Of a DNA stretch of 64,000 bases, positions 2,993-60,522 are shown piece after piece. This DNA is from Gottschalkia acidurici 9a. Lineage in GTDB: Bacteria; Bacillota; Clostridia; Tissierellales; Gottschalkiaceae. The stretch covers positions 2,650,380 through 2,714,379 of the forward strand of contig NC_018664.1 in the NCBI RefSeq assembly GCF_000299355.1, given 5' to 3'. Position numbers and translations under genes: made by a program. Every line of letters begins with the position of its first letter. Position 1 is the first letter of the stretch. The notes below the pieces were generated by a model. It ran no database searches. It saw only the letters and a list, made by a program, of their open reading frames with translations, and was not told where the DNA came from.

Positions 2993-3026
2993 AAATCTCC
3001 TCTGTCACTAATAACAGAAGAGATTT
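2993..3026 (-). terminator. Terminator of the flavodiiron gene
   Basis: Arms at 2993-3005 and 3014-3026 (minus strand AAATCTC-x-TCTGT with ACAGA-x-GAGATTT) pair around an 8-base loop just after the stop at 3033. A short T-rich tail follows. Confidence 0.75.
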
Positions 3027-11093: not shown

Positions 11094-11975
11094 TTATTTT
11101 CTAGTTATATTTATAACTTCCTGCTCAGTTTTTCCATCATCTACATCACCAAACACTCTTAGCCTATATCCTAAGTCTATAATAAATTCATCTGTTTCTA
11201 TATATGAATGATGTGTATATTTTTTATCTAAAAACTCAACCTTACTCTTATATCCATTATAATTTGTAAACTTTTTTGTTATTTCTTCGTTTTTTCCATT
11301 ACCCGATATTACAAAAGTTATCATGCAACTCTCTTTATTTATATATCTTAATATATACTGATTTAAGTTTCTCTCATTTTCTTTCTGATTTATATATCTA
11401 TCCTTTATAATGACTCTAGTGGAATTCATTAAAAATTTTGATAAATAAGTTGCTAAAATATCTGATTCGCTGTCAAGAGGTACCTCTAACCTTGTTGGTG
11501 TCTCATATATATCAAAAATACTGTGTTGTTTTCTTCCTACTATAACTTTTCTGACTTCTCTCATAGTAACCGTTTGAGATTTTTCTTTCATGAATGTTCC
11601 TTCAGATACGAACTTTACTTTCTTATTTTTTCTTCTTGTATCTAACTCTACATTTCCCACTAGAATTTTATCGTCAGATGACATAGCTGTTCCTATCATT
11701 ACTTTCTCTTCATATGTTTTAGCATTTTTTATTTTACTAGAATGCTCCACAATAACTTTTTTAAATTTCTTTTTAGAATTTATTATTGAAAAATACCAGT
11801 TTTGAAATTGTGCATTATAATTATTATCTTTAGAGTCTTGTTCCCAAGTTTTGATTAGTTCATTACTTACTATTAATTTATGCTTGTTTAATCTCTCTCT
11901 ACACATATTGTACTTGTCGCTTATATCAAATTTTTTTCTGACGATTTCCTTAGATACTGTTAATTCTAATTTCAT
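11094..11975 (-). CDS. Partner of the AAA ATPase; PLD-like (MIT_C-type) C-terminal domain
   Basis: A 293-residue protein with no signal or membrane segment. The C-terminal part (about 180-290) resembles the phospholipase-D-like MIT_C domain: VIIKDRYINQKENERNLNQY, then hydrophobic strands, then HHSYIETDEFIIDLG and RLRVFGD. The N-terminal half (KLIVSNELIKTWEQD, then IGTAMSSDDKILVGN) looks loosely like a PIN-type nuclease fold; this is weak. It lies 28 bases after the ATPase gene, with GGGTGA before the ATG at 11975. Effector or target-recognition subunit of a conflict system is my inference. No classic HKD motif is visible. Confidence 0.6.
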   Translation of the reverse strand: MKLELTVSKEIVRKKFDISDKYNMCRERLNKHKLIVSNELIKTWEQDSKDNNYNAQFQNWYFSIINSKKKFKKVIVEHSSKIKNAKTYEEKVMIGTAMSSDDKILVGNVELDTRRKNKKVKFVSEGTFMKEKSQTVTMREVRKVIVGRKQHSIFDIYETPTRLEVPLDSESDILATYLSKFLMNSTRVIIKDRYINQKENERNLNQYILRYINKESCMITFVISGNGKNEEITKKFTNYNGYKSKVEFLDKKYTHHSYIETDEFIIDLGYRLRVFGDVDDGKTEQEVINITRK

Positions 11976-12003
11976 ATTTTCACCCATTTTTCTAGATTGA
12001 TTT

Positions 12004-13362
12004 CTACATAAACTCAAAGAGTTTTCTTCCTAATTCATAATGTACATCAAAGAATCCACTTGGCCAGTCTTCTTCGAATTGTCCGTTTTCTGCTATTTCC
12101 ATCTTCATTATTTTTGTTCCATCTTGATCCTGGGTAAAATAATATATTCCAATATCGTCTGGTGATATCTTTCCAGAGGCAACAAGTATTTGTAGTTGAG
12201 TTACTAAAAATATGCTATGTGTTTCTATTAAAAACTTCTTATTATCTTTCTTAGCACAATCTACAAACAGATCTGCTAATTTAGCTTGCGCATTTGGATG
12301 AATATGTGTTTCTGGTTCTTCTATTATAACTATACTTTCTTTTTGAGAGTTAACAGACTCTATTATAATAGGCAATAATTGAGCTGTACCTATGCCTACA
12401 TCTAATATATTATTATATATACCTAAGTGCTTATTTCTTATCATAATGGAATACTTATCTTCATCTACCTCTCTAGCTTCTATGTTGTCTCCTAATTCAA
12501 ATTCATCAAGCCAATAATTTATATTTTCCTTCTTTTCTTTAATTTCTATATCTACGTCACATTTTCTATCTATATCCAGTAGAGTTAATAGTGTATCTTG
12601 CCCTCTTGAACCAACTGTTCTTGTTTTTCTTTCATTAGATACGTATTCTATTCTATGAAAATCACTTCTTAGTGATTCCAAATATAAAAACTTTTCCCCA
12701 AGCCTATTAAGGTTTTGCTCTAACTTATCTAATATATAATAAACTAAAATAATATTTTCTAAAGAACTATTAGACAGTTCGTGTAATTTCTCTTTTTTTA
12801 TTTTAAAGTAAAATTTACAAGGATATATCGCTTCTATATTATCTATTATATTATCGTTTAGTTTTAAAGTATAATTTTCTTTATCTTTAGATACTTTTAC
12901 ATTAATATCATCCGTAGTATTAACTTCAAATGCATCTATACTTAAAGTGATGTCATCTACTATCTTTAATGTAAAAGACATATCCTTGATTTTTATTTCC
13001 CTGTATTTTTCAGCTATTTTTATTATATCACTCTCATCTATATTTTCTAAAAAGTCTTTCAATATGTTTACTTCTATAGACTCTGTTTTTTGCTCACTCT
13101 CATCAAAGCCTATTTTATACTGTATTTTATTATCTACATCATTGTCATATACTAAAGCTTTATATGTTATGCTTTCTCCATCTATACCTAGAGTTGGATC
13201 CTCCATTTTGCACTGTATAGCATTTTTTAATAATAGAAGTCCTTGTATAAAGCTAGATTTACCAGAACTATTTGGTCCTACTAATATATTTATTTTTTTT
13301 ATATCTATTTGTCCTGATTTCTTAAATGATTTGAAATTCTTCACCTTAATAGATTTAATCAT
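12004..13362 (-). CDS. AAA/ABC-type ATPase with DUF3696-like C-terminus
   Basis: A 452-residue OLD/RecF-like ATPase. Walker A is GPNSSGKSS (29-37). A Q-rich signature-like stretch DVGIGTAQLLPI precedes Walker B in IVIIEEPETHIHP, and ETHSIFLVTQLQ follows as the H-loop region. The ending (EEDWPSGFFDVHYELGRKL) matches the DUF3696 tail. There is no TOPRIM domain, unlike OLD or GajA nucleases. Such ATPases pair with an effector in anti-phage and plasmid-defence systems; here the partner is the PLD-like gene 28 bases downstream. AAGGAG precedes the ATG. Base use is not obviously different from its neighbours. Confidence 0.85.
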   Translation of the reverse strand: MIKSIKVKNFKSFKKSGQIDIKKINILVGPNSSGKSSFIQGLLLLKNAIQCKMEDPTLGIDGESITYKALVYDNDVDNKIQYKIGFDESEQKTESIEVNILKDFLENIDESDIIKIAEKYREIKIKDMSFTLKIVDDITLSIDAFEVNTTDDINVKVSKDKENYTLKLNDNIIDNIEAIYPCKFYFKIKKEKLHELSNSSLENIILVYYILDKLEQNLNRLGEKFLYLESLRSDFHRIEYVSNERKTRTVGSRGQDTLLTLLDIDRKCDVDIEIKEKKENINYWLDEFELGDNIEAREVDEDKYSIMIRNKHLGIYNNILDVGIGTAQLLPIIIESVNSQKESIVIIEEPETHIHPNAQAKLADLFVDCAKKDNKKFLIETHSIFLVTQLQILVASGKISPDDIGIYYFTQDQDGTKIMKMEIAENGQFEEDWPSGFFDVHYELGRKLFEFM

Positions 13363-13436: not shown

Positions 13437-14765
13437 TTATTCAGCGCTTAATCCAGCTACGTTTAAAAAGTTCCAAGGTTTATTAAAGTGGGGTTGGAAG
13501 AAGAAATCTATAGTCGCTAATTCGTCTATAGTTACCTCTTTCTGAATGCACACTGACATTGTGTTTATAGACTGTGTAAGGTCTGTCTTTGATACTATCT
13601 GAGCCCCTATTATCTTTCTAGTTTCTTTTTCATATACTACTTTAAGCTTCAAGTCATAATATTCTGGCATAAACACTGGTCTATTTGTGTCTTCTATAGT
13701 TACAGACTTAACATCCATCCCCTGTGCTTTAGCACTACTTTCCGTGATTCCCGTAGAAGATATACTGTAATCATATATTTTTATTCCTGACGTTCCTTGA
13801 GTACCTATATACTTCAAAGTTGGCTCTTTTAAATTTTTAGCAACTAAGTACCCCATACGTACTGCATTAGTAGCTAGTGGTATGTACTCAGACTTACCAG
13901 TAGGATTAAATATAATCGTTGCACTATCTCCGGCAGCAAATACATCTTCCTTACTTGTACGCATATACTCATCTACGATTATTGCACCGTTATTAAGCAT
14001 ATCTAATTTTCCCTTAAATAACTCTGTATTTGGTCTAAATCCTATAGACAGTATAACTAAGTCCGCCTCATATTCTCCCTTGTCTGTAATTACCTTTGAT
14101 ACTTTACCATCTTTTCCTTCAATTTTAGTAACTGTTTGATTCAAAGCTAATTTTATATTTTTTTCTTTAAGAGACTCTTCAGCAATATCTGTAAATTCCC
14201 TATCCAGATATCTTCCTAATATACGATCATTAGTATCTATAAGTGTTACATTTTTTCCTTTTAGTTGAAAAGCTTCTACCAACTCTACACCTATATATCC
14301 TGCTCCTACTACAACTACATTTTTGGACTCATCCATTTTAGATGTTATTTCTTTTGAGTGTTTATAGTTTTTACATAAAAGGACATTTTCTAAGTCTGCT
14401 CCTTCTATATTTGGAATTACAGGCCATGATCCTGTAGTTATTATTAGCTTATCGAAAGTATCTTCAATTTCCTCATTTGTTATTAGATTTTTCACTTTTA
14501 ACTTTTTATTTTCCATATCTACAGATAATACATCATGTTTCATTTTTGTATTTACATTTAACTTTGTTAGTTCTTCTGGTGAACAATAAAATAGTTTTTC
14601 AACGTCATCTATTACTCCCCCAACATAAAGAGCTATTCCACACGATAAAAAAGATATATTATCATTTCTCTCATAAACTGTAATCTCAGCTTCTGGATAT
14701 AATTTTTTAGAATTTAATATTGCTGATGTACCCGCATGTGTACATCCTATAACTGCTATTTTCAT
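13437..14765 (-). CDS. nox: NADH oxidase (FAD, water-forming type)
   Basis: A 442-residue flavin disulfide-reductase-fold enzyme. H10 (GCTHAGT) and the redox cysteine C42 (FLSCGIALYVGG) are the NADH oxidase active-site residues. NAD-binding VVVGAGYIGVEL lies near residue 153, the second FAD motif VFAAGDSA near 277, and the C-terminal dimerisation end PHFNKPWNFLNVAG is typical of Nox. It oxidises NADH while reducing O2, probably to water; CoA-disulfide reductase activity is a possible alternative. AAGGGGG precedes the ATG. A Fur-type promoter lies about 290 bases upstream, with a hairpin terminator in between. Confidence 0.9.
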   Translation of the reverse strand: MKIAVIGCTHAGTSAILNSKKLYPEAEITVYERNDNISFLSCGIALYVGGVIDDVEKLFYCSPEELTKLNVNTKMKHDVLSVDMENKKLKVKNLITNEEIEDTFDKLIITTGSWPVIPNIEGADLENVLLCKNYKHSKEITSKMDESKNVVVVGAGYIGVELVEAFQLKGKNVTLIDTNDRILGRYLDREFTDIAEESLKEKNIKLALNQTVTKIEGKDGKVSKVITDKGEYEADLVILSIGFRPNTELFKGKLDMLNNGAIIVDEYMRTSKEDVFAAGDSATIIFNPTGKSEYIPLATNAVRMGYLVAKNLKEPTLKYIGTQGTSGIKIYDYSISSTGITESSAKAQGMDVKSVTIEDTNRPVFMPEYYDLKLKVVYEKETRKIIGAQIVSKTDLTQSINTMSVCIQKEVTIDELATIDFFFQPHFNKPWNFLNVAGLSAE

Positions 14766-14842
14766 AATTAAATTTCCCCCTTTATTAAAATTCTTTCCAT
14801 ATATCTCTCTACCCGTAAAAATTATTATTAATCTTTTTATAT

Positions 14843-15057
14843 AAAAAAATTCCCCTATGACAAATATGTCTTAGGGGAAAAGTCGGGTTTGAGATTAACA
14901 AATGTTTAACTTTATAAAAAAATGAGAGATTTTAAACATATAATACATGCTTCTAGCATTCATTATAATTTTCAAAGAAGGATATTTTGAGTTAGTATAT
15001 CAGTCCTGTGGAGACTTTTAGACTATATCCTTCTTTTTGATAATTGTTCTCAATGTC
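14843..15057 (-). ncRNA. Fur-controlled non-coding RNA or attenuated leader upstream of nox (candidate)
   Basis: Predicted transcript of about 215 nt. It starts near 15057 from a strong promoter under Fur boxes and ends in a textbook terminator: a TTCCCCTA-containing stem at 14850-14879, then seven T on the minus strand. Near its 5' end an 11-bp stem (15025-15035 with 14975-14985, AAGAAGGATAT/ATATCCTTCTT) encloses a smaller AGTC/GACT hairpin with loop TCCACAG. No ORF with a ribosome site is inside. Either a free small RNA like other iron-sparing RNAs, or a leader whose terminator controls nox 80 bases further on. Family not recognised. Confidence 0.5.
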
Positions 15058-15093
15058 TAACTTAATGATAATCGTTTTCAAATGTTTTGTCAA
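15038..15093 (-). promoter_or_regulatory. Sigma-A promoter overlapped by two Fur-like boxes
   Basis: Minus strand TTGACA (15088-15093), 17-base spacer, TATCAT (15065-15070). A Fur 7-1-7-like site, TGATAATCGTTTTCA (15066-15080), covers the -10 and spacer. A second, TGATAATTGTTCTCA (15038-15052), covers the start region. Both have about two mismatches to the classic palindrome. Confidence 0.65.
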
Positions 15094-15334
15094 TACTTTT
15101 TTAAAATTTTTTATTTATTTTTAGTTACAATATATGTTATTAATTTCATTTATAAAATCTAGGATAATATTTTTATTTTATATTATATTAAATACTTTAA
15201 ATTGCTTGTCTTATCTACCTTTTAATCGTTAGGTGAACTTTTGAATAATTAAAATTTTGCTTTATATTAAGAATTTTAAAAAAGATAATATTTTTCTTAT
15301 ATTTAATATTTTTATCTCTGCTAAAATTTAATTA

Positions 15335-15350
15335 TTGATAATCATTTTCA
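15335..15350 (+). promoter_or_regulatory. Fur box upstream of flavodoxin
   Basis: TGATAATCATTTTCA at 15336-15350 differs by one base from the 7-1-7 Fur palindrome. It lies 34 bases before the flavodoxin start, so flavodoxin should be induced when iron is scarce. The stretch 15100-15335 is otherwise AT-rich with no gene seen. Confidence 0.7.
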
Positions 15351-15383
15351 CATATAACAATTCAATTTATGGAGGGATTTACT

Positions 15384-15809
15384 ATGAAAAAAGTTTCTAT
15401 AATTTATTTTAGTGGTACTGGTAATACAGAAGCAATGGCTAATGCTATATCTGAAGGAGTTAAAGAAGCTGGTGGAAGTCCAGAAATTATACCTGTTGAA
15501 TCTGCTAGTGCAGAGAACATTTCAGGTGCTGATGTAATAGCTTTAGGTTGTCCTTCTATGGGCGCTGAAGTATTAGATGATACTATGGATATGTTTGTAG
15601 ACAGTATTGAAGGCGAAGTATCTGGAAAACCAGTAGCTCTATTCGGTTCATACGACTGGGGTGATGGTGAGTGGATGAGAGATTGGTATGAAAGAATGAA
15701 TGGTTACGGAGCAAATATGATTCAAGATGAAGGACTAATCTGTCATCTAACACCAGAAGACGATGATATTGAAGTTTGTAAAGCTCTTGGTAAAAAATTA
15801 GCTAATTAA
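15384..15809 (+). CDS. Flavodoxin
   Basis: A 141-residue short-chain clostridial flavodoxin. The FMN phosphate loop SGTGNTEAMA sits at residues 10-19, the isoalloxazine-binding stretch GSYDWGDGEWMRDW near 91-104, and an acidic surface is present. It carries single electrons at low potential in place of ferredoxin. A near-perfect Fur box upstream fits replacement of iron-sulfur ferredoxin under iron limitation. The start at 15384 has GGAGGG nine bases ahead; an in-frame ATG at 15369 is part of that ribosome site. A terminator follows, so it is monocistronic. Confidence 0.95.
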   Translation: MKKVSIIYFSGTGNTEAMANAISEGVKEAGGSPEIIPVESASAENISGADVIALGCPSMGAEVLDDTMDMFVDSIEGEVSGKPVALFGSYDWGDGEWMRDWYERMNGYGANMIQDEGLICHLTPEDDDIEVCKALGKKLAN

Positions 15810-60365: not shown

Positions 60366-60460
60366 AAAAAATCCTTTTTTATACAATATAAAAAAGGATA
60401 TGAAAAACAACTCTTATATCACTGTCTCTGTCCTTCAAGGCTCAAAGCAGATAATAACAG
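60366..60460 (-). promoter_or_regulatory. Structured leader with terminator ahead of panB
   Basis: On the minus strand a nested stem-loop (60460-60422: CTGT/ACAG, TCTG/CAGA, CCTT/AAGG) is followed by a 13-bp terminator hairpin (60371-60383 with 60387-60399) and a T run. It lies just upstream of panB. The place matches the pan RNA motif, known in Firmicutes before pan genes; identity is inferred, not shown. Confidence 0.5.
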
Positions 60461-60522
60461 TTAATTATTTGTTTTTATTTTTGACAAAAGTTTTGTGTAT
60501 AATTCCTTAGGATATTATCACC

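Follow-up and report, generated by a model that had tools for sequence, protein, structure and literature searches.

The window – the whole stretch of DNA analysed, 64,000 nt (64 kb) of the Gottschalkia acidurici 9a genome – contains a 618-bp gap (14766-15383) that separates nox, on the minus strand, from a flavodoxin gene transcribed divergently on the plus strand. G. acidurici is an anaerobe that ferments uric acid. The genes and predicted features in and around the gap, by window coordinates, are as follows:

12004..13362, minus strand: AAA ATPase gene (PF13175, DUF3696)
13437..14765, minus strand: nox, encoding a flavoprotein of the NADH oxidase / CoA-disulfide reductase family (Pfam Pyr_redox_2)
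14836..14863, minus strand: candidate separate promoter of nox, TTGTCA-16-TATAAA, within the terminator; weak (10/12)
14843..15058, minus strand: inferred small RNA of ~216 nt (its start deduced from the position of the -10; the U run is taken as its 3' end)
14850..14879, minus strand: intrinsic terminator hairpin, -17.4 kcal/mol
14939..14967, minus strand: second hairpin of the minimum free energy (MFE) structure
14974..15036, minus strand: first hairpin of the MFE structure, with an outer helix of 11 bp
15038..15052: predicted Fur box 2, just inside the inferred transcript; 2 mismatches to TGATAATNATTATCA
15065..15093, minus strand: sigma-70-type promoter of the RNA, TTGACA-17-TATCAT, with 11 of 12 consensus bases
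15066..15080: predicted Fur box 1, overlapping the -10 of the RNA promoter; 2 mismatches to TGATAATNATTATCA
15336..15350: predicted Fur box of the divergent flavodoxin; 1 mismatch to TGATAATNATTATCA
15384..15809, plus strand: flavodoxin gene (TIGR01753, above cut-off)

Profile searches with the nox product gave a single hit exceeding its cut-off, NF007123 (CoA-disulfide reductase); the best E-value belongs to NOXase_Strep, yet falls under that profile's cut-off. The fldX flavodoxin of C. difficile is strongly up on iron depletion (according to passages of PMC10913485), which fits the presence of a flavodoxin at the G. acidurici locus.

The original prediction described a near-ideal minus-strand promoter covered by two Fur-like boxes, and a near-perfect Fur box ahead of the divergent flavodoxin. 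The promoter and the flavodoxin box are as described; of the two boxes at the promoter both are present, but only box 1 lies on it, over the -10, box 2 being placed just downstream of the inferred start. A promoter score of at least 11/12 is in itself not rare (13 matches in 64 kb, counting both strands and spacers of 15-19). With TGATAATNATTATCA as the Fur-box consensus for scoring, the gap holds three matches with at most two mismatches, against a mean of 0.04 in shuffled sequence, and none of 1000 shuffles contained three or more: the clustering of the three boxes is not due to chance. Single boxes of such quality are common in the A/T-rich G. acidurici genome; the whole window holds fewer matches at up to three mismatches than expected (18 vs 24), and in the genome the count at up to two mismatches is 105 per strand, lower than the 180 of the reversed control. 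Matches with no more than one mismatch number 20 in the genome, 13 of which fall within 375-448 kb, in or around iron-transport genes. Because the best matches concentrate at iron-transport genes, the motif is consistent with a real Fur motif in this organism. Genes for Fur-family proteins are present in each of four family genomes (at least one match per genome, two in G. acidurici).

The region holding these 13 of the 20 best matches (G000:C2:370000-449999, loci L139-L142, outside the window) carries FeoB-like and FecCD transport genes and is, judged by its genes, an iron-uptake island. Within it, at L140:2886-8912, two proteins resembling nitrogenase component 1 are encoded in one gene run together with a NifH-like protein and an iron-transport permease of the FecCD type. 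Fur boxes matching with 0 and 1 mismatch lie immediately upstream of the run, which possibly specifies a Fur-controlled nitrogenase-like complex linked to iron uptake.

Downstream of the promoter some 215 nt had been claimed to lack an ORF and to contain an 11-bp stem-loop and a strong terminator, a description that holds. Inside 14843-15057 the minus strand has no ORF that reaches 40 aa. The RNA as a whole folds with an MFE of -52 kcal/mol (z -5.0, an energy reached by none of 200 shuffles) and retains a z of -3.3 (1 of 300 shuffles as low) when the terminator is removed. The outer helix of the first hairpin pairs 15026-15036 with 14974-14984, and its loop region contains GUCUCCAC and AACUCAAA; the terminator hairpin, which a simple terminator scan did not pick up, is followed by a run of seven U (14843-14849). 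At this locus, then, a predicted Fur box overlaps the promoter of an RNA that has no convincing ORF. The Rfam library gave no match to the RNA region at gathering score. There was a sub-threshold likeness to NsiR1 (RF02399; 22.9 bits, E 0.046, gathering score 39), a cyanobacterial nitrogen-stress RNA; this identity was rejected as a chance match of hairpin and U run, the similarity being terminator-like only. The sole Rfam match in the window is a pan motif RNA (RF01749) at 60418-60521, with 57.3 bits.

Comparisons within the family covered four Gottschalkiaceae genomes: G. acidurici 9a itself (G000) and three others (G001, G002 and G003). In all four a Fur-type promoter leads into an ORF-less RNA with its own terminator, giving six RNAs in total, three of them in G003, which supports the proposal of a Fur-controlled small RNA. 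DNA similarity to the RNA, searched over the four genomes, recovered only the G000 locus itself; the counterparts came to light only via the promoter. With a 301-base region as query, a similarity search gave matches in 9 of 60 genomes (E up to 0.001, own genome included); the eight outside G. acidurici were rejected as short, mostly A/T-rich pieces.

The closest counterpart is in G002. The extended pattern TTGACN8TGAAAAYGATTATCATT, searched in 249 genomes of the order, occurs without mismatch in G000 and G002 alone, once each. The G002 promoter lies beside that genome's flavodoxin, with 33 of 40 bases identical to G000, and in both genomes the flavodoxin is on the far side and transcribed away from the RNA. 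From the perfect promoter match (2 of 249 genomes), the 33 of 40 bases and the diverging flavodoxin we infer that the two loci are orthologous. The G002 promoter leads into 481 nt in which no convincing ORF is present, and a terminator and an AAA ATPase gene come next; nox stands farther along, apart from the RNA, and lacks a Fur box (up to two mismatches) ahead of it. G001 has a promoter with one mismatch, an RNA of 214 nt and then an ATPase gene. In both G001 and G002 the gene directly after the RNA is a relative of the AAA ATPase at 12004..13362, recognized by eye from similar sequence. The three G003 copies each have promoter and terminator. Copies a and b (220 and 201 nt) stand in tandem, recalling the tandem copies PrrF1 and PrrF2; their Fur boxes are weak (3 mismatches), a terminates ahead of b, and b is followed by a phosphoribosyltransferase gene. 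Copy c (293 nt) lies ~4.4 kb away and precedes an ABC transporter gene (recognized by eye). The genes next in line are therefore nox, an AAA ATPase (twice), a phosphoribosyltransferase and an ABC transporter, while copy a leads into copy b; wherever a copy stands singly, the gene after it has the same direction as the RNA. Fold z-scores are unremarkable in G003b (-0.55) and G003c (-1.22).

Two further observations concern these loci. In G. acidurici the AAA ATPase forms a pair (11094-13362) with a 307-aa protein without Pfam match; there is weak similarity to defence ATPases, and the pair is kept in G001 and G002, where it adjoins the RNA. The third G003 RNA (L174:8916-9208) has an additional G/C-rich segment, AACCGTGAGACGGCGGGGATTGC, inserted after the first CCUC box and before the second.

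The bodies of four of the RNAs – G001 and G003a, b and c – are alike in all six pairs (shuffles reaching the observed likeness: at most 4/300 or 1/500). They share the order AACCTCAA - GCCTC/ACCTC - CCTCAA, and G001, G003b and G003c have ATCCCCTA ahead of the terminator. CCTC occurs five times in G001 (reached by 0 of 2000 dinucleotide shuffles), four times in G003a (0), three times in G003b (14) and four times in G003c (3): it is significantly enriched in these four of the six family RNAs, and not in G000 or G002. In the structural ensemble the CCUC sites are predominantly unpaired (mean unpaired probability 0.51-0.97). The helix around the CCUC loops reads UUUCUGUC/GGCAGAAA in G001 and G003c and UUUCUAC/GUAGAAA in G003b, a G-C to A-U change noted by eye. 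In a MAFFT alignment the CCUC blocks fell out of register. The G002 RNA has two CCTC (361 of 2000 shuffles) and one ATCCCC, and bears a weak likeness to G001 (8/300 local, 1/300 global) and G003c (21/500). The G000 body shows no likeness beyond shuffles to G001, G003b, G003a or G002 (211, 290, 198 and 177 of 300) or to G003c (33/500). It contains no CCTC, but has five pyrimidine motifs (CTC after C or T, or CCCC), a number reached by 25 of 2000 shuffles. Its apparent membership, assigned by promoter and position, is the weakest link in the family.

At the places examined beyond the family the design was not recovered. The promoter pattern with up to three mismatches occurs in 69 of the 249 genomes of the order, at 84 places, 50 of which were examined (27 of 30 loci, 20 others and three more in G003); among these the 43 places outside the family nowhere showed the whole design. 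At one, L217, an ORF of 60 aa is absent and a hairpin resembling a terminator lies 78 nt downstream; another, L154, has neither ORF nor terminator; the remainder lead to ORFs, several of them feoA/feoB-like genes by eye. A Fur-like promoter in G027 (L155:1588 onwards) precedes a frame that contains TGA in phase, within VG(TGA)GGP, and by eye suggests a selenoprotein of the HesB-like type. The pattern ATTATCATTN{10,40}RCCTCAA matched 90 of 391 genomes of the class. Among 40 places checked one had TTGAC and a 2-mismatch box, and was rejected because it lies inside a coding frame (nusA-like by eye). The pattern AACCTCAATTN{32,60}RCCTC matched 45 of 249 genomes; among 31 matches, located in 30 loci, a Fur-like promoter was present solely at the three from the family, the pattern having been derived from those same three RNAs. 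Upstream of nox relatives, 4 of 80 loci have a Fur box (up to two mismatches) within 600 bases, in a scan that placed the gene start at 3001, wrongly for about ten shorter loci.

We consider it fairly probable that the minus strand of 14843-15058 encodes a free, Fur-repressed, trans-acting small RNA, probably iron-sparing through pairing near ribosome-binding sites. Under ample iron, Fur-Fe2+ bound to box 1, over the -10, and to box 2, at the start, would block transcription. When iron is scarce the promoter would fire, RNA polymerase would halt at the terminator, and the RNA would build up along with the divergent flavodoxin. It would most likely act in trans, its unpaired pyrimidine-rich stretches (CCUC/CCUCAA in the relatives; UCUC, CUCC and CCCG in G. 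acidurici) pairing with purine-rich ribosome-binding sites, and the outcome would be less translation of dispensable iron enzymes. To the pairing step by itself we would give slightly less than an even chance.

Several systems of comparable design are known. IsrR of Staphylococcus is described, in passages of PMC9410917, as a 174-nt RNA with a sigma-A-type promoter, two Fur boxes, its own terminator and unpaired C-rich regions; it is listed there as conserved among staphylococci, without being orthologous to other iron-sparing sRNAs. The G. acidurici RNA resembles it in inferred size, promoter type, two predicted Fur boxes, own terminator and predicted free-standing organization, but has no C run longer than three outside the terminator. 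FsrA of Bacillus subtilis is likewise Fur-repressed with C-rich regions (passages of PMC8216469 and PMC9410917) and acts with the chaperones FbpA/B/C (PMC9410917, same passages); the predicted Fur repression is shared here, C-rich boxes are enriched in four of the six family RNAs, and it is by analogy with FsrA that an iron-sparing role is suggested. The unpaired CCUC of four of the six family RNAs is similar to the C-rich seeds of FsrA and IsrR, whereas G000 and G002 lack the enrichment. RyhB and PrrF of proteobacteria are named in the same passages of PMC9410917. They share Fur repression, predicted for the RNA described here, but are Hfq-dependent and of other sequence, and no homology to them was found; homology to IsrR and FsrA was sought with the Rfam library as sole test, without a match at gathering score. 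Searches of full-text, open-licence papers returned no Fur-repressed iron-rationing RNA in clostridia and no paper combining Gottschalkia with small RNA. In three C. difficile papers, the terms Fur box, iron and C-rich do not occur in PMC10267692, nor Fur and iron in PMC3649979, nor sRNA in PMC6311696, where 'small RNA' appears once, in a reference. A trans-acting iron-sparing RNA is favored because Fur boxes, short length, terminator and, in four of the six RNAs, unpaired C-rich boxes are as in IsrR and FsrA.

Target prediction, proposed along with the original claim, took the form of three screens (patterns before ATG and a duplex ranking of 122 genes), and these gave no signal and no target. 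Before ATG, TTGAGGTT is rarer than its reversed control in the four genomes (10, 7, 19 and 6 vs 37, 22, 34 and 14), and TGTGGAG is equal to its control (49 vs 47); in the ranking, which ignores accessibility, nox came 46th and the flavodoxin 61st. This outcome would suit a free Fur-repressed RNA that acts otherwise than by pairing to ribosome-binding sites, for example as an RNA sponge or protein binder, and the repeated unpaired CCUC boxes of the relatives would accommodate several partners. Fur-controlled RNAs with unpaired C-rich motifs, however, have the anatomy of the mRNA-pairing FsrA and IsrR (as far as passages of PMC9410917 and PMC8216469 describe them), and we regard a sponge or protein binder as unlikely.

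The original prediction had offered a second function, that of a leader controlling NADH oxidase by termination: Fur would regulate transcription, and regulated read-through of the terminator would supply nox. In G. acidurici the arrangement allows it, in that nox is on the same strand and starts 77 nt past the terminator, and a stricter promoter scan found no site between the two; the co-directional gene after every single copy points the same way. A 5' leader would, however, be expected to keep its downstream gene, and no conserved one was found across the four family genomes, nox of G002 being elsewhere and devoid of a Fur box. Copy a of G003 stops before the next copy. A simple minimum-energy test predicted no competing antiterminator in any of the six RNAs: upstream pairing of the terminator 5' arm gains 0 to -3.8 kcal/mol, against terminator hairpins of -12.2 to -20.9 kcal/mol. 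The candidate promoter inside the terminator could also serve nox separately, although sites of its 10/12 type are frequent (1.26 per kb and strand in the window); each of four scanned gaps between terminator and next gene has a promoter-like site of 9-10/12, again a common grade. Changing next genes, tandem copies and the lack of a predicted antiterminator speak against a nox leader, for which we see little chance, and the third G003 copy strengthens the reading as free RNA. At the sequence level, terminator, tandem copies and differing next genes indicate that the predicted product ends at a terminator of its own and is a free RNA rather than a leader, and its counterparts in relatives suggest a regulator in its own right and not a switch of the neighboring enzyme.

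It is rather improbable that the G. acidurici locus is a decayed remnant, with a promoter that survives by chance or serves as a Fur sink and an RNA that no longer functions: the body is not recognizably like those of the relatives and contains no CCUC, but the promoter is the best conserved, the terminator strong and the fold z-score low. That the RNA is a short mRNA encoding a small protein, or has a dual function, is very improbable, for the mini-ORFs of 14-22 codons in the G. acidurici RNA and the 50-codon frame in the G002 RNA region are set against Shine-Dalgarno matches of at most 4/6 bases in G. acidurici and throughout the five RNAs considered (all but G003c), whose listed peptides show no resemblance by eye.

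The free, trans-acting RNA thus remains our preferred reading. Fur-repressed iron-rationing RNAs occur in several distant groups without common sequence (PMC9410917, passages cited above), and the RNAs described here would form a new family of this already known functional kind. More tentatively, and possible rather than likely, the Gottschalkiaceae may possess an iron-sparing riboregulator of independent origin, in which Fur promoter and position have been kept and the RNA body rewritten. If true, arrays of CCUC (up to five boxes, in up to three copies) would typify one genus, a 481-nt RNA a second, and a CCUC-less RNA of 216 nt G. acidurici: conserved control would outlast conserved sequence. 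Such a family, in strict anaerobes reliant on iron-sulfur enzymes, would add another independent origin, and comparing the four genomes would provide a test of whether promoter and regulon persist while the RNA changes.
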